A stretch of DNA of 64,000 nucleotides from Leptasterias polaris. Taxonomy: Eukaryota; Echinodermata; Asteroidea; Forcipulatida; Asteriidae. Positions 23,401-62,695 of this stretch are shown one piece after another; the stretch's first letter is position 1, and the number at the start of each line of letters is the position of its first letter. The position numbers were made by a program, and so were the translations under genes. Location: the NCBI GenBank assembly GCA_037783415.1, contig JAZGTN010000044.1:1054001-1118000 (forward strand), given 5' to 3'. The notes under the pieces were generated by a model. The model was given only the letters and a program-made list of their open reading frames with translations. It ran no database searches and was not told the origin of the DNA.

Positions 23401-26400
23401 GAGCAAATAAAGATGTACGACACTGCGGCTCATGTCTGGTGAGTCATAGGTGGCATCCAAAATGGCGGCTACAGCTACTGCTATGACTGTTGCTAAGGGT
23501 GTTGCCAAGGAGGAACTAGCTATAGCCGTAGCTGCAGCCGCCTATTTGGACATGGCCAATAGTTTCCACGGTTGATTTTGTAGGATGAGTTTTAGTCATT
23601 GTAAAATAACTAGTTGATGATTTGACTCCTCTGAAATACGTTGTATGCTGAAATCAGGGAATTAAGGAGACATTCAGTTCAGTACAACTCAACATTTATT
23701 TCCATATTGCAAATGCACATACAAGTAATTCGTCGGCGTTTTAACGAACCGGCGAATCCGCCCACGCAGCTGAAACACAACGTTTTGAGAAAAACGCTTT
23801 TGAAGTTGGTCACATTTTGTAAAAGTGTTTGCGCCGGTCCTTAATTTGAAAATGTAAAATATTTTCTATTGATACGGTAGTGTATAACATGACTAGATAC
23901 TTATTTCTTTAATTGGGTGCTTTGTTAGAAAGCTGTTAGGTTCAAAACTTATTCGCCGGTTCGTGAAAACGCAAAAACCTGAGTATGCGGTTTTACCACA
24001 CACAGCGCGCGGATTCGCCGGTTCGTGAAAATGCAAAATACTGAACAACACCGGATTCGCCACACACAGCGCGCGGATTCGCCGGTTCGTGAAAACGCAA
24101 AATGCCAAACACCCCGGATTCGCCACATAAAGGGCGCGTATTCGCCGGTTCGTGAAAACGCAAAATGCCAAACACCCCGGATTCGCCACCCACAGGGTCG
24201 GATTCGCCGGTTCGTGAAAACGCAAATCCGTGAGTGCAGACGATTCGCCGTTTTGGCAATTAACGTAATTAGTAAAGTATTCATTTTCAAGACTTAAAAT
24301 TTTGCAGAAATGTTAAGGACACCTAATACACTAAGAAAAACGAAAAAAACGAAAATGCCACATTGAATCATTTTGGACGGATTCGCCACTTCGTGAAAAC
24401 GCCGACGAATTATAAAGAAGGTCTATTGAACAAAGATGTATGAAGAACTTCTAGAATAATAATTATATGTGAAACAATGAAACAGAGGCACATTTTGAGG
24501 CATATTTGAAAAACCAAGTCTTGTGAAGAAATGCCTTAAAAAACAATGTGCTGGACTTCTGAACAGAGCTTAAATTACAACGTATAGACAAGGACGAAAC
24601 AGGACAATCAAACAAAGCAAACGCTACCTAACGAAATAGGATGGAACAATGGACGTCATTGAGATGCAATAATGCCTCCTTAATCTTTCAACTCCTTTTT
24701 CTTGTTGGAACTTCATGGACTCAAACAGCCATTATGGGTTCCTTGTAATGCAAAATTTATGGTTCTTAAGTTAAAGTAAGAGGGTATTATTGTAGCGTTG
24801 TCCGTTGTAAAGTCAGTTATCCTAATAATAATATGCAGTTTTTGTATAGTGCTTTTGACACCGGAAGGGCGTTCAACAAGAATGCAGAGCTATGTTTGAA
24901 ATTGTAAAACCAATTATCGTCCAGGCCTGGAGTTACACTGAGGCCACAGCCTCTGTTGCCCCTGGTCCTGGTCTTGGCCTTGGTGCCCCTTCAAAAGTGT
25001 CCATAGACTCGAAGATTTTCCAATGGAAGTGCCCTTTGCAAAATGAAAATGGCCACGACCCTCTCAATGAAGAAACCCCAGGCCTGTTTTACGTGTTTAT
25101 TTATACATGCTCCCGTCATAGACTCCTTTTTCATTGTGCTCTCTATTTGCGCTCATTTCATCACCACTTTCTGTATTGATCTATTCTGTATGTTGTGAGG
25201 CTGGGCCTATTTTGTTTTTTGCTATGTCGTTTCTGTTTTGGTGTTATTGTTCCGTTTATTTCCTTGTATTGTATTTTTTGTTCTTGTATTGTTGAGGTAG
25301 AATGGTTTACCCCTGCCAATGTTTGTCTTTTGCATTTGGTGAGTGGGCAACTGTGAAGTTCAAAGTCTGCTGTGATAGAGGACAACTTTGAGAGAAGTAC
25401 TGAAATTACGTCAAATCATCATCTCCCCTTTTTCGTTGAAATGTTCTTTAGGAATGAGTTAAAGAATTCTCTGGAAGCTGCCATAGGGAGGACAAACACA
25501 GGTTCTTCGAGGGTTTGGTCATTTTTCTGGTCTTGTCATCAGCGGTTCTTCAAACAACTTTGGTAAGAATGGGGTTGCTCTGCTCTCATTTAGTTTCCCC
25601 TGTAATTTAGTTGCGTATTTGTATTTTATGAATTTGTATTTATAAATTCACAGTGAAATAATTATGGTGGTTTCTTTGTAGCACTCAAATCCATCACTCG
25701 GTGTGGTTCGAACGAAAAGTTGCCATGAAGTTAATTTTGGAGTTTTATTTTTCTCAGTTTGGGCGTGAAAGTGCCGAACATTGTCGCGGAAGCAAAGAAA
25801 GCCTTGGAAGATGGATACTGTGTTGTGATTGGTCTACAGACTACGGGAGAGGTAAGACTGGTAGTATCAGCCAACAAACCAAACATTTGGGAATTATCAG
25901 CATATCTTTCTTTAAACGGAGTGATAGTTTAGCACATTCAAATATTGAAGTATATAATTTCCAAGATAAGTGTTTTAAATTTTGTTTTTGCATTCTGAAG
26001 TATTGGACATCATTAAAATGCTTTTTTTCTCTTTTTTTTATATTATTTTCTTCTTTCAATTTTGTAAAAAAAAAGAGTCTTCACTGAACTCTCATTCGGT
26101 GAGACAAGGTGTTTGCCAGGATCTAGAAGAAAGGAAATATACGACTGGGTTTACAAATTGTTATTTTCCAACACTTTGCATGTATTCAAGTGACGGATAA
26201 AATAGGGTGTCCAAATGACACCCAGACACCCCTCTTGCTAATACTATTGTTGCGGTACCTTTAGTCTGGATCCCCAAGTCATCCTTGCCCAACCTCAGCT
26301 AGTGTTCAATTCCAAAAAGGGCAAGGGAGAGAAATCATTTTGGGGCAGTATACCACCAGTCGATGCAGAACTCACAACCTAGTGGAGGGGAAAGTAGCAG

Positions 26401-29400
26401 TTGGGACAGCCGGGAGACTCCTTTTGGGACGGACACTTTCACACTCCTATGTTCCTTCAGTAGTATTTTATTATTGATTGCAATTGTCAACATTCTCCCT
26501 TAACAGTGGTTTGCTGGCCAAATGCCACTTAAAACACCTGAGGACCAGTCAGAATTCATTCCAAATGGTCCGGCTGGATAGTTCAGTGTTGAAAAGCATC
26601 CATATTTCATTAGAAACATTGACTAGTAAAAAGCTGCTGAACTAGTGAAATGACAAGCTAACTGGTCCTGCTGGCCAGTTGCTTAAAAAGTAATGGGCAT
26701 ACCCTGATTGTATGTACAGGTGTAAAGATGGAGTTCTAAACAGGTTATTTACTTGCCAACTCATGCCTAAGTTTTCCTGACTAACTCCTCTTTACTGAAA
26801 TGACCACCACATCTCTCAACTGGTCTCGGACAAAGTTCCTTTCGTCCTACATGTAATGTCACACTCTAAAAAAGCGCTGTCACTGAGGCAAAAAAGCCCC
26901 CTCACTGAGGCCAAAGGAGGCAGATCATTGGACGATATGTGTTCTTTGTGTGTAAAAACGTGTGCATGACCTCAGCTTCCCTGTAGCATTTGGCGTTATG
27001 CAAGGGGTCTATTGAGTGTTTCTATTTGGGATTTCTCTTTACAGGCAAGTATGGAGAGTGAGCGCAACAAAGGGGACAGTAGTTCTAGTTCTCAATCGGG
27101 CTTTGTGTCTGTCGCTCGTGAGATTCTTGTTCGATTCATCAACCAGTACTTCCCAACAGTCATCGTTGCGGTGAGAACGTTTTCTTGTTTTGGCAGCTAA
27201 TAATACCATGTGACTTCTGTGCATGTCAGGGCTTAAATTCGGGGGGAAAATCTATAGACCTTTCTTTTGCAACGTCACAGCCCGAGTTTTTGCCAACCCA
27301 GGTTGGAAAAGTATGGAAAGCCGAAATGCAAATCAAAAACAGATTGCCCACAGTTTGGAGCAGTGTTACACAAATATTCAAAAATAGTGTTGAATTTGTT
27401 GGAAACAAATCAACCAATCATGGAAGGTAATTCCGTTCATGAATCTTTACAGAAAATGTTGAATTTGGTCACAACATTTTTTAACACGATTGAATGTTTT
27501 ACTAACATTCGGCCGTCCATGCCATGCCAACCGGCGCACTTTGTTTGTAAACAAAAGAAAGGTCTATAACACCGCAGGGCTCGTAGCTCAAAATACTCAC
27601 TGGACCAGAAATTTCTATATAAGACCAGATTTAAAATGAGGAAAACAAACTTTTCTGACACAGTTTAACATGCATTTAACTGCTTTAAAGGGTCTGTATA
27701 CGTTTGGTAATCACTCTTAACCCTTTCCTTACCGAATTGTTTGGACATAAACAACTGCTGATAACTGCATTGTTTGACCACTCACACGTGAAGCACACAT
27801 TCTTACACAACAGAAAGCTTTAGTTCAAAGGCCATTTTTACAAACCCCATTATCTCCTTGAAGACATTGTTTTACAGCAAAATAAGTAATGAAAAAGTTC
27901 TCACTTATTGAATTCCATTTCATATAATCAAAAAATCATTGAGATCGGTCAATAAATGTCAAAGTTCTTTGTCTTTCTTTCCTCGGTGTGATCTGTAATC
28001 TCAAACACTTTTTTGTACACAACCATATGGCGCTCCGTAGGTGTTTGGCATTTCGGATCTTTCAACTCCAGTTTGAAGAGATTGCAAAATAGCAACCTTA
28101 TTTTATTTGACCATCATTGGAAAGATCCGATCTTTCCCTTTCCAATGATGGTAAGCTTGGGTATGGAGGGCAAACATGGACAAAACTACAGCTTTATTAC
28201 AAATGGCCTTTGTGCTCAGGCTTGAGTGCTTTTTTGTGTGTAAGCTTGGTCGACTAAAGTCGCCAATGGTAAGGAAGAGGGGGTATTAGTGCAGTCGACT
28301 AAAGTCGCCTATGGTAAGTGATCTTAAATGGAATTTGCATATCTCTGAAATTGTTTCCAAAGCCTCTCGTCGCTTGTATACTCTATGCATTTTGAGAAAA
28401 TCAGGGGTTCCCATCCGAGATATGGTTACTGTCTACAAATCCTACATCAGACCCGTTTTAGAATATGCCTCGCCAGTTTGGCATACTTCCATTACTCAAT
28501 CCCAGTCAAAGAAAATAGAATTTATCCAGAAGAGAGCAGTCCAAATAATGCTTGGAAAGAAATACCATTACACTGAAGCTCTTGAATTGACCAAACTACC
28601 ATCTTTGGCTGATCGCAGAAATAACTTACTTCACAATTTTGGGATTAATCTTTTGAAATCGGACCGACACAGACAGTTGCTTCCACCTTCCAAATCTAGC
28701 ACTAATTCTAGGGTCTTACGAAATATGTCTGGTTTAAATTCAATTAAATGTAAAACAGAGAGATACGGGAAATCTACCATTCCACAACTTGCCCAGATGT
28801 TGTAATAGTTTTTTTTATTAATGGTTTTGTTAATTTTGTACTTTTTACTTTATTGCCCTTTAATATGTGATCTTTTATATTTTTACATGTGCTTATATTT
28901 TTACCATTGTTAAGTGACCCTTTCAGCTACTGCTGCTGGTCATTTTGTTTGTATATACCAATAAATAAAAAAAATAAAAAAATAAAAGGGTTAAAATTAA
29001 TGGCAAAAAAACCTATTGTTTAGAAGCCTACAGCAGCTTTTGATAGTATAAAGCATTTTGAGAAACATTTCACTTCAAAGTTTTGTGGTTATTTAAAAAT
29101 GTATCGGGTTCATGCATAGACAAATTCGCTCCGTTTTGGAGCAATATCTAAAAAAAACACAACCACCTTTCAAAATGAAATATTCACAGGTTAGTTTTAT
29201 TTCATTTATCAACATTTTTACAGGATTAAAACAATCGAACGCTTAAAAAAACCAAAGGTATGCTTTGCCTTTAAATGAACAAGCACTAAGATGTGTAAGA
29301 GAAGATTTATCTCATTTGTCGCAAAGATAGATTTCTTGATTACTCGTACAATTGAAAGGTAATTTATTGGACCAAAAATGTCAACACTTGGACAACACAA

Positions 29401-32400
29401 TATCGAGATTTACCGTGAGTTTACTGGCCTGACACTAAAATCACTGGCCTCAGGCCTGTGGTCCAGTGAATTCGAGCCCTCCATGTCACTGCATTTTTCT
29501 ACCTTTGCATGTACCACATGTAACACCTGGCGATGTGAGCTTCCTCCAAGACTGTCATTAAACCTAATTTTATAGAGATATTTTTGCGTGTATTGTTTGG
29601 CAGCAAGATGGAAGACTGTTAAGCCCTTTTACCGGGCATGCTTAGAGAAACAGTCACATTTGTGAAACATGCCTTGTATTTTGTCTCATTTGATTTCAAT
29701 GTGTTGATGTTTTTCTTCCTGCCAATCGGGTTGCAGGATGATCAAGGACCAAGGAATGACGACTGGAGCTTGACAGCTAAGACTATGCTCATTGACTTCG
29801 CCAAGGAGATGCCTTTACCAAACAGGTAATGGATGGATGGAAATCTTAGATCTGTCTGGATAAAGAAAACAGAGCTAACTCTCTTTCAGATTTCTTTGTT
29901 TTTGTACAATTACCCTCCTGTAACTTTCTGATCTGCATCGTCTTCTAAAAATCCCTTCCCCGACCCTTCCTTCACCTCCAGTCCTCTTGATGACATCATC
30001 GATCAACTTGGTGGAGTTTCCACCGTTGCTGAGATGACTGGGCGTAGAGGGCGTATGATACGTGATGGTCCGAATACCTCCGCACGCTTTGAACCTCGCA
30101 CACCGAGCGACTCCACTGACGTGAATAGTATGAATGTCCAAGAGGTAAGGTTAAAGGTTAAATTAATTGAAGAGCAAATTCCAGTTTTGTTAATAACTTT
30201 CAATTTTCAGGAATCGAACTGAATCTTTGAAAGTAATGTGCAATGCATTAATATTATTTACAAATGGTCAAGAATAACACCAAGCTGAATCAGTTTGTAG
30301 CTAAAACCATTTCAAAGGCACAAAATGCTTCTGAATATAGAACATTCATTCAGAAAAAGATATTAGTCAGAACTAGCCTTTTTGTTACAAATTTTCTGAA
30401 ATTCTATTTTTAAAAAAGGGCCTCCAAATTGATCCCTCTCATCGCTTGAGCTGTACATATTTGTACAAATGACACAATGATGGAGATAACTCTGATATTT
30501 AAACTCAAAACAAGGTGCCAAAAGACTTCCTACATCTTTCTGGCTCACAATATATCTTTTAACCCCTTACCTCTTACCTCCTGCCAATTTTGTTCAGGAT
30601 TGTCCTACTGCGGACAGTTTATAATGGAAATATTTTTCAGAATACTGACTTGGAGTGGTTATCTCTAAAATGATTATATTAAAAGTCCAACTGGCTGGAA
30701 CATTTGACCAGAAGTACACGAGTAATGCTCTTGGAATGCACCAATGATTGTCTGGGAACATGCAGACCATCCCCAGAACATCCGCACATGTACATGTAAC
30801 CATTCCAACCTTTAAGAAGCTCCTAGATATAAAAATTCATATATTTATTTAAACAATTTTCAGAGGAATAGTTTTATGTGCGGGAAGAAGTTGGTAGCCA
30901 TTATATCAGACGCTGCTAGTACAGGTAAGACAGCTATTTCAAACTCGACGATCTTTGAGTGTTTAAAAATGTCGTAACTATTTTAATAAATTTAAACATC
31001 TTGCCTTGGAACTTTGATTTGATTTTGTAGACCAATTCATCAGATGTGCTTCGCAAATGTTTCTCCCAAGTGAAAATTGTTTTCGGAGAAAAGGGCACAA
31101 ACAATGTTCTTTGCCTGGTGTTTTTGCTGATGATATTTGTCTATTATTAACAGGCATGATATCCTTCCTACTTTAGTCTGATTTCCGATTTGTTTGCATT
31201 CAGAAAAACAACGAAATTGTTATATTCTAGCCTGACAAAAATAGTTTTTAATTCTTATAGGTCAATTTTAGTAAAAAGTACTCAACAAAAATATGTCCTC
31301 CTTTTTTTTGAAAGTCCAAATACCATGCCTGTATTAACTTGAACGAAACCGCTAAACAAATTTGATCCTTTATATTTTTTTATTGTGGGTTTAGTTATTA
31401 TTTGGTCTGAAGTTTGAAGTTTTCTGCGCTGCAATTTTGCTGAAATTTGATCAGAAACACTTTTTTCAATTTTGAACTAGTGTTTGTTATCGCCGTTTGC
31501 GGCGACCTCGTATGTTCAGAACCGATACATCATACTGCAGACTGGTGAAGATTGTTTATCTCCATATCTAGGAATTTACTGATTGGTTTCTTTGGATCGT
31601 TTCCTATTTCTTCAATTTTGTTTTTCAATAACCTGTGTAAGTTTGTATCATGCCTAGCAAATGTGCTGTCGTGGATTCCAGAAAAAGTAAAGAGAATTCC
31701 AAGGTTATTTCTTCCATTCATTTTGCGAGGAATCTGGCGATGTTTGTTAAGAACTCTTGAAAGGAACTCAAGTTGTCAAAATTGTCCTTGAATGGTTTAT
31801 AAAATGAAGGGATCAACACAAAATGTTTTTTTCGAAAAAAGCTTAAATTATTGTTAAGTTGTTCGTAGATCAAGGGTTGCTACTACAAAGCACCGAAAGG
31901 GACATAATGGTAGGAAAACATTACTGAAAACAGAAATAGTTCAATTTCACATGAAATCATTTATTTTGTGCGCTCAGAATTTATTATTGCCAGAGCTAGA
32001 AATAAATTATTGCAAAGGCTCGAAATAATTATATTGCAAAATCATTTCCTGCTCTCAAAATCATTTCGAAAGTTCAAAACAAATTATTGGAAGAGCTCAA
32101 AATAAATTATTGCGAAATCACTTCCTGCTCTCAAATTCATTTAGATCGAAATCATTTCAAAAGCTCAAACAAATTGTTGCGAGAGCTTTAAATAAAAATA
32201 AAAATTCATTGCGAAATCATTTCATGCTCTCAAAATGTTTTTGAATGCGGCTTTTGGGGACTTTAATCAAATTATTTTTTTTTTTCTCCAAATTTTACCC
32301 CCAAATATGTTTTCTGCATTTGTTGCCTTAACCCTTCGAGCGCCGCCAACAGTCTGAAACGTCGTACTGAATATCCATCCACAGGCTGCCAACGTTTCTC

Positions 32401-35400
32401 TTACGTTCTACTACTTGACCCCCCCAAAAAAAATTGCCCTGTGGATAAAGAATTGCCAAAACGCGACCGGCACTGTAAAGAACCCTTCCAGCGCCGCCAA
32501 CGTTCTGAAACATCATACTGAATCTCCATCCACAGGCCGCCAACGTTTCCTTACGTTCTACTACTCGAACAAAAAATAAATTAAAAATAGCCGGCCTGTG
32601 GATACAGAATTACCAAAACGAGGCTGGCACTGTAAGGGTTAAATGTTTAATTCCACCACGGGAAAAAGTAATTCATTTATATTTAGTAAATTTGGTTTTG
32701 ACTGTTAATCACAGAAAGCTTCACAAACTGAGGATGGTATTGAAGGTAATGTCAACTTTCCTCTTCAAACCAGGCAGAACCAGGGAGTGGGTTTTAAAGG
32801 ATTTGGGAAATGTGAGGTTTAACCAAATACTATATTCTGCCCAGGTATTTCACTGCATGCAGACGCCAGGGCTAAGAATCAACGGAGGAGATTACATCTG
32901 ACGATTGAGCTGCCATGGTCAGCAGATAAAGCTGTCCAGCAAATGGGACGATCACATCGGTCAAACCAGACAAGGTAATAACAAACAAACCCCTCCCCCT
33001 ACCCCAGCAAATGGGACGATCACATCGGTCAAACCAGACAAGGTACTTATTACAAACAAACCCCTCCCCCTACCCCAGCAAATGGGACGATCACATCGGT
33101 CAAACCAGACAAGGTACTTATTACAAACAAACCCCTGCCCCTACCCCAGCAAATGGGACGATCACATCGGTCAAACCAGACAAGGTAATAACAAACAAAC
33201 CCCTTCCCCTACCCCAGCAAATGGGACGATCACATCGGTCAAACCAGACAAGGTACTTATTACAAACAAACCCCTCCCCCTACTCCAGCAAATGGGACGA
33301 TCACATCGGTCAAACCAGACAAGGTACTTATTACAAACAAACCCCTCCCCCTACCCCAGCAAATGGGATGATCACATCGGTCAAACCAGACAAGGTACTT
33401 ATTACAAACAAACCGCTGCCCCTACCCCCAGCAAATGGGACGATCACATCGGTCAAACCAGACAAGGTACTTATTACAAACACACCCCTCCCCCTACCCC
33501 AGCAAATGGGACGATCACATCGGTCAAACCAGACAAGATAATAACAAACAAACCCCTCCCCCTACCCCAGCAAATGGGACGATCACATCGGTCAAACCAG
33601 ACAAGGTACTTATTACAAACAAACCCCTCCCCCTACCCCAGCAAATGGGACGATCACATCGGTCAAACCAGACAAGGTACTTATTACAAACAAACCCCTC
33701 CCCCTACCCCAGCAAATGGGACGATCACATCGGTCAAACCAGACAAGGTACTTATTACAAACAAACCCCTCCCCCTACTACAGCAAATGGGACGATCACA
33801 TCGGTCAAACCAGACAAGGTACTTATTACAAACAAACCCCTCCCCCTACCCCAGCAAATGGGACGATCACATCGGTCAAACCAGACAAGATAATAACAAA
33901 CAAACCCCTCCCCCTACCCCAGCAAATGGGACGATCACATCGGTCAAACCAGACAAGATAATAACAAACAAACCCCTCCCCCTACCCCAGCAAATGGGAC
34001 GATCACATCGGTCAAACCAGACAAGGTACTTATTACAAACAAACCCCTCCCCCTACCCCAGCAAATGGGACGATCACATCGGTCAAACCAGACAAGGTAC
34101 TTATTACAAACAAACCCCTCCCCCTACTCCAGCAAATGGGACGATCACATCGGTCAAACCAGACAAGGTACTTATTACAAACAAACCCCTCCCCCTACCC
34201 CAGCAAATGGGACGATCACATCGGTCAAACCAGACAAGATAATAACAAACAAACCCCTCCCCCTACCCCAGCAAATGGGACGATCACATCGGTCAAACCA
34301 GACAAGGTACTTATTACAAACAAACCCCTCCCCCTACCCCAGCAAATGGGACGATCACATCGGTCAAACCAGACAAGGTACTTATTACAAACAAACCCCT
34401 CCCCCTACTCCAGCAAATGGGACGATCACATCGGTCAAACCAGACAAGGTACTTATTACAAACAAACCCCTCCCCCTACCCCAGCAAATGGGACGATCAC
34501 ATCGGTCAAACCAGACAAGGTACTTATTACAAACAAACCCCTCCCCCTACTCCAGCAAATGGGACGATCACATCGGTCAAACCAGACAAGGTACTTATTA
34601 CAAACAAACCCCTCCCCCTACCCCAGCAAATGGGACGATCACATCGGTCAAACCAGACAAGGTACTTATTACAAACAAACCGCTGCCCCTACCCCCAGCA
34701 AATGGAATGATCGCATCGGTCAAACCAGACAAGGTAATAACAAACAAACCCTTCCCTCCTACCCCAGCAAATGAGATGATCACATCAGTGACCTCCCGGC
34801 CACAACTAACTACCAAATTATTTTATTTGTTGACTAAAAATGTGTTCAACTGGTTTTTTTCAGTGGTCCTGTGTATAAACTACTGACAACCAATCTCGGT
34901 GGAGAGAGACGATTCGCTGCGTCTGTTGCTCGTAGGCTGCAGACCCTTGGTGAGATTTCTAGACTCCATTTCATAGAGCTCATTAGCATAGAGCTCATTA
35001 GCATATAGCTCATTAGCATAGAGCTCATTAGCATAGAGCTCATTAGCAAGAGTTTTACAGCTAAGCAAATATTAGCAGAGGATGGGTCACATCTCAATGT
35101 GGTATTTGGGCTGGGACTTATTTCTGCTAAGCAAGGATATTCTGTACTAACACTTTGACTGCTGCAAATGTTTACACGGTCCCTCCCCATGGTGCTGCAG
35201 ATGTTTTACAAAATTACAAAAAAACTTCATGTTTTAGTTTTACACTGTCCCTCCCCACGATTCTGCAGGTTTTATTTGGAGAACTACATCAAAGATTTAT
35301 AAATAAAAACATTCAAATAAATGACACTGTTGCTTTTATTTTCTATTACACCCCATATCTTTTTTGGAGTGGTATACATCGTAGCAAGGGGTCTGGTGAA

Positions 35401-38400
35401 GTGGAATTTTACACTGTTACTAAAAAATGTTGGCAGAAGTTTACTGTCTGCAAATCACCGTCATCACCGGACGATTCCTGTCGATCAAATTCACTTTCAA
35501 CGTCACTGGCATTACTTTCAGACTCTATATTATCAGAATGATCATTGCCATCAAACTCACTTTCTTCAGAGTCACTATCTGCGAATATTTCAACAACAGC
35601 TCTGCTACACTCAGGCGTTTCCTGGGCGCCGCCATTTTTTAACTCCGAAAGTATAAACTTCCGGGTTACTATACCACTGCTGGTGCCCGGGCCCGATGAG
35701 TAAAACCATCGAAAACAACTCCATTGGTTCCCCTAACATATGTCAATACGTTTTATACATGAAAAGCATTTCAATCCTTGATCTACAGAGGGCAGTACAA
35801 CGTTGTACAACCAGCCCGAGTCAGCCCGAGTATACTCGGGCTCAGTACTAGCTGGGGGGTAAGTCTATCCCGAGTATACTCGGGCTCAGCACCAGCTGGG
35901 GGTAAGTCTATCCCGAGTATACTCGGGCTCAGCACCAGCTGGGGGGTAAGTCTATCCCGAGTATACTCGGGCTCAGCACCAGCTGGGGGTAAGTCTATCC
36001 CGAGTATACTCGGGCTCAGCACCAGCTGGGGGGTAAGTCTATCCCGAGTATACTCGGGCTCAGCACCAGCTGGGGGGTAAGTCTATCCCGAGTATACTCG
36101 GGCTCAGCACCAGCTGGGGGTAAGTCTATCCCGAGTATACTCGGGCTCAGCACCAGCTGGGGGGTAAGTCTATCCCGAGTATACTCGGGCTCAGCACCAG
36201 CTGGGGGTAAGTCTATCCCGAGTATACTCGGGCTCAGCACCAGCTGGGGGGTAAGTCTATCCCGAGTATACTCGGGACAGCAGTCAAAGTGTTAAAGAGG
36301 AAGGGAAGTGTTTTGTACTCTTTTTCTCATACACCTGTAGATAGAGTCCTCATGTGAGCGGGGAAAAATTTACATGTCTCTAACCTCATATTAAAATGGT
36401 GTCAATTGCCATTTTATTCAATACCCTTCCAGTGCAAAAATTTGTCAACATCCAAAACATCTGATGACATCATTCTGAGAAGAATGGACCTCAACATTTT
36501 TGTACGGGGATGTTTTGGTTCAGTCCTGACTTTCAATAAAAGTTCAATCAAAACAGCCTTGACTGTGACATTATGACTGTCAAAAATTCCTCCTTGGAAT
36601 GTAAAGATCCGTTAGTTGTTGAATTATAATGACGTCATGTTTCAAATTTTGCTCAGAAAAAGTACATCCCTGTATAAATGTGTAGTGACCCATTTTTCTC
36701 AGATGATGTCATCAGATGTTTTAGATGTTGACAATTTTTGCAGTGGGTGGGTATAGAATAAAATGGCAGTTTACACCTTTTTAAGGTGAGGTTAGAGACT
36801 TGTAATTTTTTCCCCACTCACATGAGGACTCTATCTAGTGGAAAATGAGTAAATCACAAAATTGAATTTGATATTTCCCTTCCTCTTTAGGTAAAACAAA
36901 TGTTTGTGTTAAGTGTACCTTGCTTACAAAGCTAGCACAGAATACCACAGTAAGTGGGTTAATGTGTAGTGGGTTGTTCACAAGGGACAGACAACTAATG
37001 AACATTTAAGATGCACAAGGACGATAAACAGTTCACTTCATAAAATCCCGAAGGCTGGTAAAATAGAGGTAAAAACTGGCGATGGTTTGCGAAAAACTAT
37101 CAGAAGAAGCAAAGGTACCAGTGTGAACAAAAAACAGTGAAAAGTCATGGGTGAAGCAACATATTTACAGTGCACCAGTGAGCAAGTAAAGTTGCTTTGA
37201 TTGGTCCCTTAATGCATCCTTTGATGTAAATATTTACAAGTACATGCAAATAAGGCAGTCACCATATACTGAAGGAAGGCATAATTTCTTGGCTGAGAAG
37301 AATTATAAAGATAGATATATGTCAACGCTTACTTTATGTGATTTTGACCATTAGGTGCGTTAACACAAGGTGATCGTAGAGCGGCAACCGGAGCTGACCT
37401 GACACAGTTCAACTTTGACACGCCGTATGGCCGTACAGCATTACGTACTATGTACGCTTCTATATGCAATGTAAGTTCGGTAACGAGATGCTATCATTTA
37501 AAATCACAAGTATTTTAACACATGCCACGCCAAAATCAAATTGCTTGAGGTTGATGGATTCAGTACTGCACAGCCAAACCAACCATGCCTAGCATGCCAG
37601 GCATAACAATCTTATTAGAGTCTAAAGGTTTTACCTGAGTTTGATGGATTCAGTGCTGCACAGCCAAACCAACCATGCCTGGCAAGGAAAACCAATCTTG
37701 TCAGAGTCTAAAGGTTTTACCTGAGTTTGATGGATTCAGTGCTGCACAGCCAAACCAACCATGCCTGGCAAGGAAAACCAATCTTGTCAGAGTCTAAAGG
37801 TTTTGCCTGAGTTTGATGGATTCAGTACTGCAAGGCCAAACCAACCATGCCTGGCAAGGAAAATCAATCTTGTCAGAGTCTAAAGGTTTTGTCAGAGTTT
37901 GATGGATTCAGTACTGCAAGGCCAAACCAACCATGCCTGGCAAGGAAAACCAATCTTGTCAGAGTCTAAAGGTTTTGCCTGAGTTTGATGGATTCAGTAC
38001 TGCACAGCCAAACCAACCATGCTTAGCATGGAGCCAGGCACAACAATCTCATTAGAGTCTAAAGGTTTTACCTGAGTTTGATGGATTTAGTAATCAGTAC
38101 TGCACAGTTAAACCAACCATGCCTAGCATAGAGCCAGGCATACCAATCTTATCAGAGTCCAAAGGGTTTGCCTGAGTTTGATGGTTGACTTCTCTATTTG
38201 GACAGAACTGTCAAAGTATTTACAATCATGCAGCTGTTTTAATGAGATATTAGTTTCTAAACACATACCTCACTTCATGAAAAAAACGCTGTATGCAAAT
38301 CAATGCATGTTGTGATACGTTGCTTCGTGAAAACGCTGAACTTAAATAGATAAACAGATATGTCACTTCTTAAAAAGGCAAAAGTCATACTACGCGTGTG

Positions 38401-47400: not shown

Positions 47401-50400
47401 AATCTCCCTGATTGCAAGATGCAAATGTTGGCAGCTCGGCCCTAGAGGTCAATGGCCCATTCTGTGCACCGCACCCACATGGCGTGGGTTTTCATTGTTT
47501 TACTTCTTAGATGACCTCAATGTCCTTTGGGAAAAAAGGCCAATGGTCACATGTGTTATGTAATACATTTTAAAGAACCCAAGACACATTACATTACAGA
47601 AGGGGGCTTCGGGCATTTCAACTTTTCTTTGTTTAAATAATATTATAGTGCCTTAGAAAACTGAAACTCACTACAAAGCATTGTTCGCTTGCAACCTCTT
47701 TCTCTTTATTTTGCATTTACAAAGTTACATGTCTAGGGCTTGCCACAGTGTTTGTGGCAGCAATTTGTAGCACATAAGTAAGTTTTTATTGCCATTAATG
47801 AGAATATTACAAGGAGGCTAGTCATCCTTACTTGTAGCTGAGAAGCTGAGTTGCGAAGGACGCGGCTACAACATGGTTGAGGCACAGGCATGTAAAGGTG
47901 CCTTTGGCAGCCAACCACATTGACCCTTATTTGACCACGCACAGCCAGATATCTAAATTGTTTGGCTTTTCCAGAGGGAGGAAAACCAGAGGGCCCTGAG
48001 AACAATCTTTGTGGCACAGCTCTACCGACATATGACCCTTGGTAGGGCCACAGTGGTGAGGGGTAGTCGCTTTACACCCTAGCCACCCATGCTACCCATT
48101 TGTATCCCTTTCAAGGTGTTCTGGCTGCTTCAGTCTTACCACCCTAGTGTTGGTAGGGCCACAGTGGTGAGGGGTAGTCACTTAACACCCTAGCCACCCA
48201 TGCTACCCATTTGTATCCCTTTCAAGGTGTTCTGGCTGCTTCAGTCTTACCACCCCAGTGTTGGTAGGGCCACAGTGGTGAGGGGTAGTCACTTAGCACC
48301 CTAGCCACCCATGCTACCCATTTGTATCCCTTTCAAGGTGTTCTGGCTGCTTCAGTCTTACCACCCCAGTGTTGGTAGGGCCACAGTGGTGAGGGGTAGT
48401 CACTTAACACCCTAGCCACCCATGCTACCCATTTGTATCCCTTTCAAGGTGTTCTGGCTGCTTCAGTCTTACCACCCCAGTGTTGGTAGGGCCACAGTGG
48501 TGAGGGGTAGTCACTTAGCACCCTAGCCACCCATGCTACCCATTTGTATCCCTTTCAAGGTGTTCTGGCTGCTTCAGTCTTACCACCCCAGTGTTGGTAG
48601 GGCCACAGTGGTGAGGGGTAGTCACTTAACACCCTAGCCACCCATGCTACCCATTTGTATCCCTTTCAAGGTGTTCTGGCTGCTTCAGTCTTACCACCCC
48701 AGTGTTGGTAGGGCCACAGTGGTGAGGGGTAGTCACTTAACACCCTAGCCACCCATGCTACCCATTTGTATCCCTTTCAAGGTGCTCTGGCTGCTTCAGT
48801 CTTACCACCCTAGTGTTGGTAGGGCCACAGTGGTGAGGGGTAGTCACTTAACACCCTAGCCACCCATGCTACCCATTTGTATCCCTTTCAAGGTGTTCTG
48901 GCTGCTTCAGTCTTACCACCCCAGTGTTGGTAGGGCCACAGTGGTGAGGGGTAGTCACTTAACACCCTAGCCACCCATGCTACCCATTTGTATCCCTTTC
49001 AAGGTGTTCTGGCTGCTTCAGTCTTACCACCCCAGTGTTGGTAGGGCCACAGTGGTGAGGGGTAGTCACTTAACACCCTAGCCACCCATGCTACCCATTT
49101 GTATCCCTTTCAAGGTGTTCTGGCTGCTTCAGTCTTACCACCCCAATGTTGGTAGGGCCACAGTGGTGAGGGGTAGTCACTTAGCACCCTAGCCACCCAT
49201 GCTACCCATTTGTATCCCTTTCAAGGTGCTCTGGCTGCTTCAGTCTTACCATCCTAGTGTTGGTAGGGCCACAGTGGTGAGGGGTAGTCACTTAACACCC
49301 TAGCCACCCATGCTACCCATTTGTATCCCTTTCAAGGTGTTCTGGCTGCTTCAGTCTTACCACCCTAGTGTTGGTAGGGCCTCAGTGGTGAGGGGTAGTC
49401 ACTTAACACCCTAGCCACCCATGCTACCCATTTGTATCCCTTTCAAGGTGTTCTGGCTGCTTCAGTCTTACCACCCCAGTGTTGGTAGGGCCACAGTGGT
49501 GAGGGGTAGTCACTTAACACCCTAGCCACCCATGCTACCCATTTGTATCCCTTTCAAGGTGTTCTGGCTGCTTCAGTCTTACCACCCCAGTGTTGGTAGG
49601 GCCACAGTGGTGAGGGGTAGTCACTTAACACCCTAGCCACCCATGCTACCCATTTGTATCCCTTTCAAGGTGCTCTGGCTGCTTCAGTCTTACCACCCTA
49701 GTGTTGGTAGGGCCACAGTGGTGAGGGGTAGTCACTTAACACCCTAGCCACCCATGCTACCCATTTGTATCCCTTTCAAGGTGTTCTGGCTGCTTCAGTC
49801 TTACCACCCCAGTGTTGGTAGGGCCACAGTGGTGAGGGGTAGTCACTTAACACCCTAGCCACCCATGCTACCCATTTGTATCCCTTTCAAGGTGTTCTGG
49901 CTGCTTCAGTCTTACCACCCCAGTGTTGGTAGGGCCACAGTGGTGAGGGGTAGTCACTTAACACCCTAGCCACCCATGCTACCCATTTGTATCCCTTTCA
50001 AGGTGCTCTGGCTGCTTCAGTCTTACCACCCCAGTGTTGGTTGGTAGGGCCTCAGTGGTGAGGGGTAGTCACTTAACACCCTAGCCACCCATGCTACCCA
50101 TTTGTATCCCTTTCAAGGTGTTCTGGCTGCTTCAGTCTTACCACCCCAGTGTTGGTAGGGCCACAGTGGTGAGGGGTAGTCACTTAACACCCTAGCCACC
50201 CATGCTACCCATTTGTATCCCTTTCAAGGTGCTCTGGCTGCTTCAGTCTTACCACCCCAGTGTTGGTAGGGCCACAGTGGTGAGGGGTAGTCACTTAACA
50301 CCCTAGCCACCCATGCTACCCATTTGTATCCCTTTCAAGGTGTTCTGGCTGCTTCAGTCTTACCACCCCAGTGTTGGTAGGGCCACAGTGGTGAGGGGTA

Positions 50401-61644: not shown

Positions 61645-62695
61645 TTACCCTAACCCTAACCCTAGCCCTTGCCAAATACGTTTTTATGCACATTATTTAA
61701 ATCAATAGATCAAAAACCTTTACACCAACCCTAACACTTACTAAATGAGTTTGTATGCACTTGAATTTAAAACTTTTGATCGAAAACCCTAACCCAAGCC
61801 CAAACTCTAACCCTACTTTTGATCACAAACCCTTACCCCAAATCCTAACCCTAACCCCAACATTAACCTTAACCCTAACCAAATAAGTTGTTATGCTCAT
61901 TAATTTAAAACTTGTCATCAACAACCCTAACCCTAACCCTAACCCTAACCCTAACCCTAGCCCTAACCCCAATCCTAACCCTAACCCTAACCCTAACCCT
62001 AACCCTAACCCTAGCCCTAACGCCAATCCTAACCCTAACCCTAACCCTACTTTTGATCACAAACCCTTACCCCAAATCCTAACCCTAACCAAATAAGTTG
62101 TTATGCTCATTAATTTAAAACTTGTCATCAACAACCCTAACACTAACCCTAACCCTAACCCTAACCCTAACCCTAACCCTAGCCCTAACGCCAATCCTAA
62201 CCCTAACCCTAACCCTACTTTTGATCACAAACCCTTACCCCAAATCCTAACCCTAACCCCAACATTAACCCTAACCCTAACCAAATAAGTTGTTATGCTC
62301 ATTAATTTCAAACTTGTCATCAACAACCCCAACCCCAACCCCAACCCTAACCCTAACCCTAACCCTAACCCTACTTTGGATCAAAAACCCTAACCCCAAC
62401 CCTAACCCTAACCCTTACAAAGTAAGTTTTTATGCTTGTTAATTTAAAATGGTTGATCAAAAACCCTAACCCTAAACCTAACCCTAACCCTTACCAAGAA
62501 AGTTTTTATGCTCATTAATTTAAGACTTTTCATCAACAACCCTCCCCAACCCTAACCATAACCCTAACCATAACCCTACTTTTGATTAAAAAAAACCAAC
62601 CCTAAACATAAACCTTACCCCAACATTTACCAATTAATATTTGTATGCTCATTAATTTAAAATATTTTATCAAAAACCCTAACCCTAACCTTAGC
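61645..62695. repeat. Interstitial telomere-like array (CCCTAA)n with a repeated AT-rich spacer
   Basis: Runs of CCCTAA are broken by about eight copies of a spacer containing TTATGCTCATTAATTTAAAA (61682, 61753, 61891, 62101, 62293, 62430, 62505, 62644). Several are followed by ACTTTTGATCACAAACCC. The spacer matches the end of the family D MITE. Frames encoding Asn-Pro repeats are artefacts. Confidence 0.92.

Follow-up and report, generated by a model that had tools for sequence, protein, structure and literature searches.

Can an intron that is filled with copies of its own upstream splice boundary provide a gene with extra exons, or are such copies simply a minisatellite that is removed with the rest of the intron? 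A preliminary description of the window (the whole 64-kb stretch of Leptasterias polaris DNA analysed here) raised this question by proposing that a helicase exon end and the start of the following intron had been copied into a cassette of potential exons. Judged from its sequence, the array is very probably a mirage-type minisatellite in a FORGETTER 1-like gene whose copies are spliced out and leave the protein unchanged. Mirages, described in the amphioxus globin genes BflGb6 and BflGb9, are minisatellite-like tandem duplications of exon-intron boundaries (PMC3087553, PMC3902484).

Searching Pfam exon by exon, we found AAA_34 (PF13872), Helicase_C_4 (PF13871) and SBNO (PF25373) on the plus strand of the host gene, which is the domain set of the strawberry notch family. 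From a spliced alignment to a protein of the sea urchin Diadema we obtained 27 exons between 13322 and 47201 with 25 scored junctions, in a gene model that leaves the stretch 27158-29983 without settled structure. A fuller protein model is 92% identical to an Asterias rubens protein named FORGETTER 1-like, 80% to its Patiria and 78% to its Acanthaster counterpart, 68% to that of the brittle star Amphiura and 62% to that of amphioxus (Branchiostoma). These values point to a starfish host near to, though probably distinct from, Asterias rubens, and amphioxus was rejected as host. Among the matches listed, the best were invertebrate proteins, many of them named FORGETTER 1-like, and the SBNO1/SBNO2 rows reached about 31-47%. 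By pairwise identity, the gene is a strawberry-notch-family helicase and stands nearer to the FORGETTER 1-like proteins of invertebrates than to SBNO1/2. The name SBNO used in the preliminary description fits at the level of family domains, and we rejected the vertebrate SBNO1/SBNO2 as closest relatives.

The exon whose end lies in the array matches the Helicase_C_4 profile from 74 to 117 and carries at its end what we take to be helicase motif VI. The repeated segment had been said to encode this catalytic motif; it encodes most of it, with the first Gln immediately 5' of the unit. The features of the locus are as follows.

32845..32974, plus strand: host exon, 17th of 27 modelled and numbered 19 in the preliminary description (PF13871 and spliced alignment to the Diadema protein)
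32936..32939, plus strand: exonic member of the CCAG pair at which the duplication joins; the intronic member is at 33004-33007
32936..34786, plus strand: minisatellite array of the mirage type that crosses the donor boundary (unit 68-72 bp, 26.3 copies)
32940..32974, plus strand: exonic 35 nt of the founding unit (from sequence and unit splitting)
32975..34863, plus strand: intron of 1889 nt, nearly all of it filled by the array (spliced alignment)
33923..34484, plus strand: 281-bp block of four units, present twice
34699..34795, plus strand: diverged terminal copies
34864..34949, plus strand: following host exon, which continues the Helicase_C_4 profile from 117 and joins to 32974 without a gap

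The array is real. Tandem Repeats Finder reports it with a period of 71, 95% matches and a score of 3311, well above chance level, and both its place and its copy number agree with the roughly 26 copies first described. Each unit consists of the final 35 nt of the exon and the initial 33-37 nt of the following intron, so that the duplication does take in a boundary between exon and intron within a coding gene, as was proposed. There are 27 unit starts from 32940 to 34768. The first is the true exon tail (32940), 25 belong to intronic copies that are complete, and the last (34768) belongs to a degenerate partial one. Complete units (n=26) are 68 bp (six), 69 bp (one), 71 bp (17) or 72 bp (two) long with intronic parts of 33, 34, 36 or 37 nt; the earlier range of 68-71 bp was about right and has to be extended to 72. 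A CAG stands directly before all 26 intronic unit starts, and the GT donor is retained in 21 of the 25 complete intronic copies, 19 of them reading AAG/GTACTT and two AAG/GTAATA, which bears out the earlier statement that most copies have a donor. In the other four, starting at 33503, 33855, 33923 and 34204, the donor GT has become AT. The splice signals are hence kept in many units and not in all.

The inner units are homogenised and the edge has diverged. The exonic 35 nt are the same as in the true exon in 23 of the 25 complete intronic copies, two four-unit blocks of 281 bp (33923-34203 and 34204-34484) have the same sequence (Tandem Repeats Finder also reports a period of 281), and the last full copy has three exonic changes and is followed by the degenerate partial copy. 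A 301-bp query against the genome (629.7 Mb), in a search that scores few candidates and passes over very common words, returned 11 matches, every one inside the array, with one candidate region scored, which puts the array at a single locus. A plasmid DNA search gave no match, as expected.

How might such a unit have come about? The CCAG tetramers at 32936-32939 in the exon and 33004-33007 in the intron lie 68 bp apart, and we infer that the first tandem duplication took place between them, the founding unit of a minisatellite having happened to cover the donor boundary of an exon. This event would have placed 35 nt of exon and 33 nt of intron inside the intron. A CCAG-to-CCAG duplication gives precisely the unit observed, so each copy begins after an acceptor-like CAG, in agreement with the earlier proposal that the C-rich tract of the intron had been joined to an exonic CAG. 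Slippage or unequal exchange may then have enlarged and homogenised the array, and the identical four-unit blocks show that at least part of its later enlargement took place in blocks. Counting the last partial copy as old intron puts the intron with a single unit at about 129 nt, compared with 195-2405 nt for the 25 modelled introns. Considering a G-quadruplex as a driver, we found no four-tract match on the minus strand; three-tract matches numbered 19.

A boundary-spanning array could seem to call for a special explanation. The gene holds nine arrays, counted as Tandem Repeats Finder rows in the gene span with a unit of at least 15 bp and at least three copies; rows at 25617, 26868, 31983 and 32000 (fewer than three copies), 42449 and 44274 (3- and 10-bp units) and 17134 (an overlapping row) were left out. 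Under random founding about 1.0 of the nine would be expected to span a junction, and one does. Arrays with a unit of at least 20 bp are also frequent here, with 10 in the 64-kb window versus 10 in 180 kb elsewhere (18 stretches of 10 kb at the same offset, each from a different contig). No copies of the other 26 modelled exons were found elsewhere in the window, where four short matches in flanking intron cover 0 nt of exon. Given this abundance, the expected number and the uncopied state of the other exons, arrays are common here and the boundary-spanning one needs no special cause.

Other repeats in the window deserve mention. Downstream of the last modelled exon, Tandem Repeats Finder reports a 111-bp unit present 39 times with 97% matches (48039-52379). 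Within the host gene, a 44-bp array of 10 copies (35825-36276) has a unit with a palindrome (CCCGAGTATACTCGGG) and a donor-like GGTAAGT, and telomere-like AACCCT arrays at 61772-62688 are contig-internal and interleaved with longer repeats.

The preliminary description knew of no comparable case in an SBNO gene; the architecture itself has already been published as the mirages of amphioxus genes. Besides the globins, mirages are listed by citation in amphioxus Adh3 and troponin C, with similar repeats in PGBD5 (PMC3087553, PMC3902484). The features reported for them are those of the starfish array, namely duplication of a boundary in a conserved gene, AG/GT signals in many but not all units and a centre that is more homogenised than the edges (PMC3087553, PMC3902484), and the divergence at the edge of the starfish array matches that at the edges of published mirages. 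We therefore file it as the same kind of array in another phylum. Its 26 copies compare with six and three in two BflGb6 haplotypes, and its 68-72 bp unit with 10-72 bp in Adh3 and 150-160 bp in BflGb6 (PMC3087553). Unlike in amphioxus, each starfish copy also acquires a CAG acceptor through the CCAG join. Mirages have been described in cephalochordates, and the starfish host falls outside that group, which is a difference in the place of description rather than in mechanism. Our search of open-licence literature found, among the matches listed by title, no minisatellite at splice sites in starfish or echinoderms. The 26-copy starfish case suggests that the mirage process is not peculiar to cephalochordates. 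This matters as mirages, described in amphioxus, have been suggested to seed new introns and exons; the globin paper puts forward a part for them in intron gain and adds that their cryptic sites might yield aberrant transcripts (PMC3087553, PMC3902484).

As other repeats at splice sites show, arrays of this sort can in some cases influence splicing (PMC2812944, PMC5954066). Human segmental duplications contain internal minisatellites at exon-intron boundaries that reportedly can give rise to new introns; these sit in recent paralogues and average 30-bp units in four copies (PMC2812944). A VNTR in intron 18 of human ABCA7 has a 25-bp unit whose first two bases are the donor site, and use of an intronic donor retains one unit out of frame, a disease-linked case in which the effect on splicing has been shown (PMC5954066). 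Like the starfish array it is an intronic repeat with a donor in its unit (PMC5954066), whereas the starfish unit also contains exon sequence and an acceptor-like end. In C. elegans, the CeRep25B minisatellite is over-represented near alternatively spliced regions, and the abstract of that paper does not mention exon-boundary duplication (PMC4039745).

Are the donors of the starfish copies good enough to be used? On a matrix built from the host gene's own 25 junctions, a small sample, the true donor scores 8.8 bits and the common copy donor 5.1 bits, within the authentic range of 0.7-11.7; this value exceeds that of six of the 25 authentic donors, and in two copies the donor is identical to the true one. 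By score, then, the copy donors are competent. One could imagine that the donor of a later copy is used and units are retained, so that copy number tunes the productive share of mRNA through nonsense-mediated decay in analogy to ABCA7, where the donor in each VNTR unit retains one out-of-frame unit (PMC5954066). The 21 GT-bearing copies with their in-range scores would permit this, and intron retention adds NQTR and then a stop directly past the boundary. However, the common copy donor is weaker than the true donor, which is also the one nearest to the exon, and normal splicing has been reported or inferred to be undisturbed by amphioxus mirages, including those of Adh, the globins and troponin C (PMC3087553, PMC3902484). 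We consider such donor slippage unlikely.

The acceptors bear on the proposal that the copies are spliced in as 35-nt mini-exons, singly or by threes, to repeat motif VI or to control output through the reading frame. Every copy has its CAG and most have a GT donor, as such a cassette would need. On the gene's own matrix, however, even the best of the 26 copy acceptors (-8.5 to -5.5) is weaker than the weakest of the 25 authentic ones (range -0.7 to 13.6, with 5.2 for the true acceptor at 34864). A generic vertebrate-style matrix places the copy acceptors at 4.6-9.1 versus 3.3-10.5 for five usable authentic ones, in a comparison that leaves out donors 14955 and 16639 and acceptor 29983 as their provisional coordinates were wrong. 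By that matrix the copy acceptors are not poor, so their weakness depends on the small gene-own sample. Sizes also speak against mini-exons. The copy exons have 35 nt versus a modelled minimum of 53, and the introns from one copy to the next would have 33-37 nt, far under the 195 nt minimum of the gene's modelled introns (195-2405 nt; n=25, array intron included).

The reading frame gives a mixed picture. None of the three frames of the exonic 35-mer contains a stop, and the frame is kept by three copies (which add 35 aa) or by six, which a cassette could exploit; in-silico translation gives a premature stop if one, two, four or five copies are included. The 71-nt unit is likewise stop-free in all three frames. 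For this reason an open frame of 445 aa (32905-34242) runs through the array, and its Pfam matches, including one to motif VI, come from the repeated segments. We rejected this frame as a sign of function, since it is out of the gene's frame and starts 35 nt before 32940.

The direct junction from 32974 to 34864 restores the Helicase_C_4 domain without a gap (profile positions 74-117 followed by 117-149) and aligns to the Diadema protein equally gap-free. For a comparison with protein relatives we took the best 120 matches of each of two protein searches, giving 215 relatives, which are predicted proteins picked by similarity so that minor isoforms may escape. The motif pattern was matched in 202 of the 215, with a second copy in none of the 202, and the spacing from the motif to GE(x)RF is exactly 14 residues in 199 (the landmark pattern is absent in the other three). 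Eleven of the remaining 13 continue without an insert and two are beyond judgement. In the Asterias rubens protein, we looked for an insert at this junction and found none. Taken with the acceptor scores on the gene's own matrix, the sub-minimum sizes and the stops produced by one or two copies, the lack of an insert in all relatives open to judgement speaks against a cassette of exons in use, and we regard it as highly improbable.

Variation among the copies could be taken to point towards use. Among the 24 inner copies (32940-34698), variable columns number one of 35 in the exonic half versus 11 of 38 in the intronic half (Fisher p = 0.003, in a test that takes columns as independent when a single indel can fill several). 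Low exonic variability could be read as constraint on a copied exon, which would suit mini-exons. Rather we favour, as a tentative reading, homogenisation combined with a C-tract prone to slippage, given the three exonic changes in the terminal copy and the donor-losing G to A change in four copies. A splicing rheostat would combine several of these elements. Copy donors, and rarely acceptors, would compete with the true junction, copy number would set the amount of productive mRNA, and a three-copy in-frame minor isoform would carry a duplicated motif VI. The near-invariant exonic halves would then reflect use. We judge this decidedly unlikely.

In the preferred reading of a mirage-type minisatellite, the spliceosome would keep the first donor at 32974 and the T-rich acceptor at 34864 and remove the whole array. 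The copies would be by-products, giving rise at most to occasional aberrant transcripts that stop prematurely, and on the sequence features described above the array is most likely silent. If so, splicing tolerates two dozen decoy sites within a single intron. With many site pairs in one short intron, the locus allows an RNA-seq test of the use of duplicated splice sites.

Could the copy number instead have been inflated or collapsed in assembly? One amphioxus mirage looked aberrantly assembled in the draft genome (PMC3087553). Here, by contrast, variants are spread over the copies in a mixed pattern, and the array, at 1.85 kb, sits in an assembly whose 334 contigs for 630 Mb suggest long reads. 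An artefact seems very improbable.

Two other open frames were observed in the window. An intronic frame of 164 aa (28311-28802) matches PF09004 (ALKBH8_N) with 23.1 bits versus a cut-off of 21 and may be a retroelement remnant. The other, of 244 aa (52436-53167), has no Pfam match and contains the stretch CPVCNKDLP, which we take to be zinc-finger-like.
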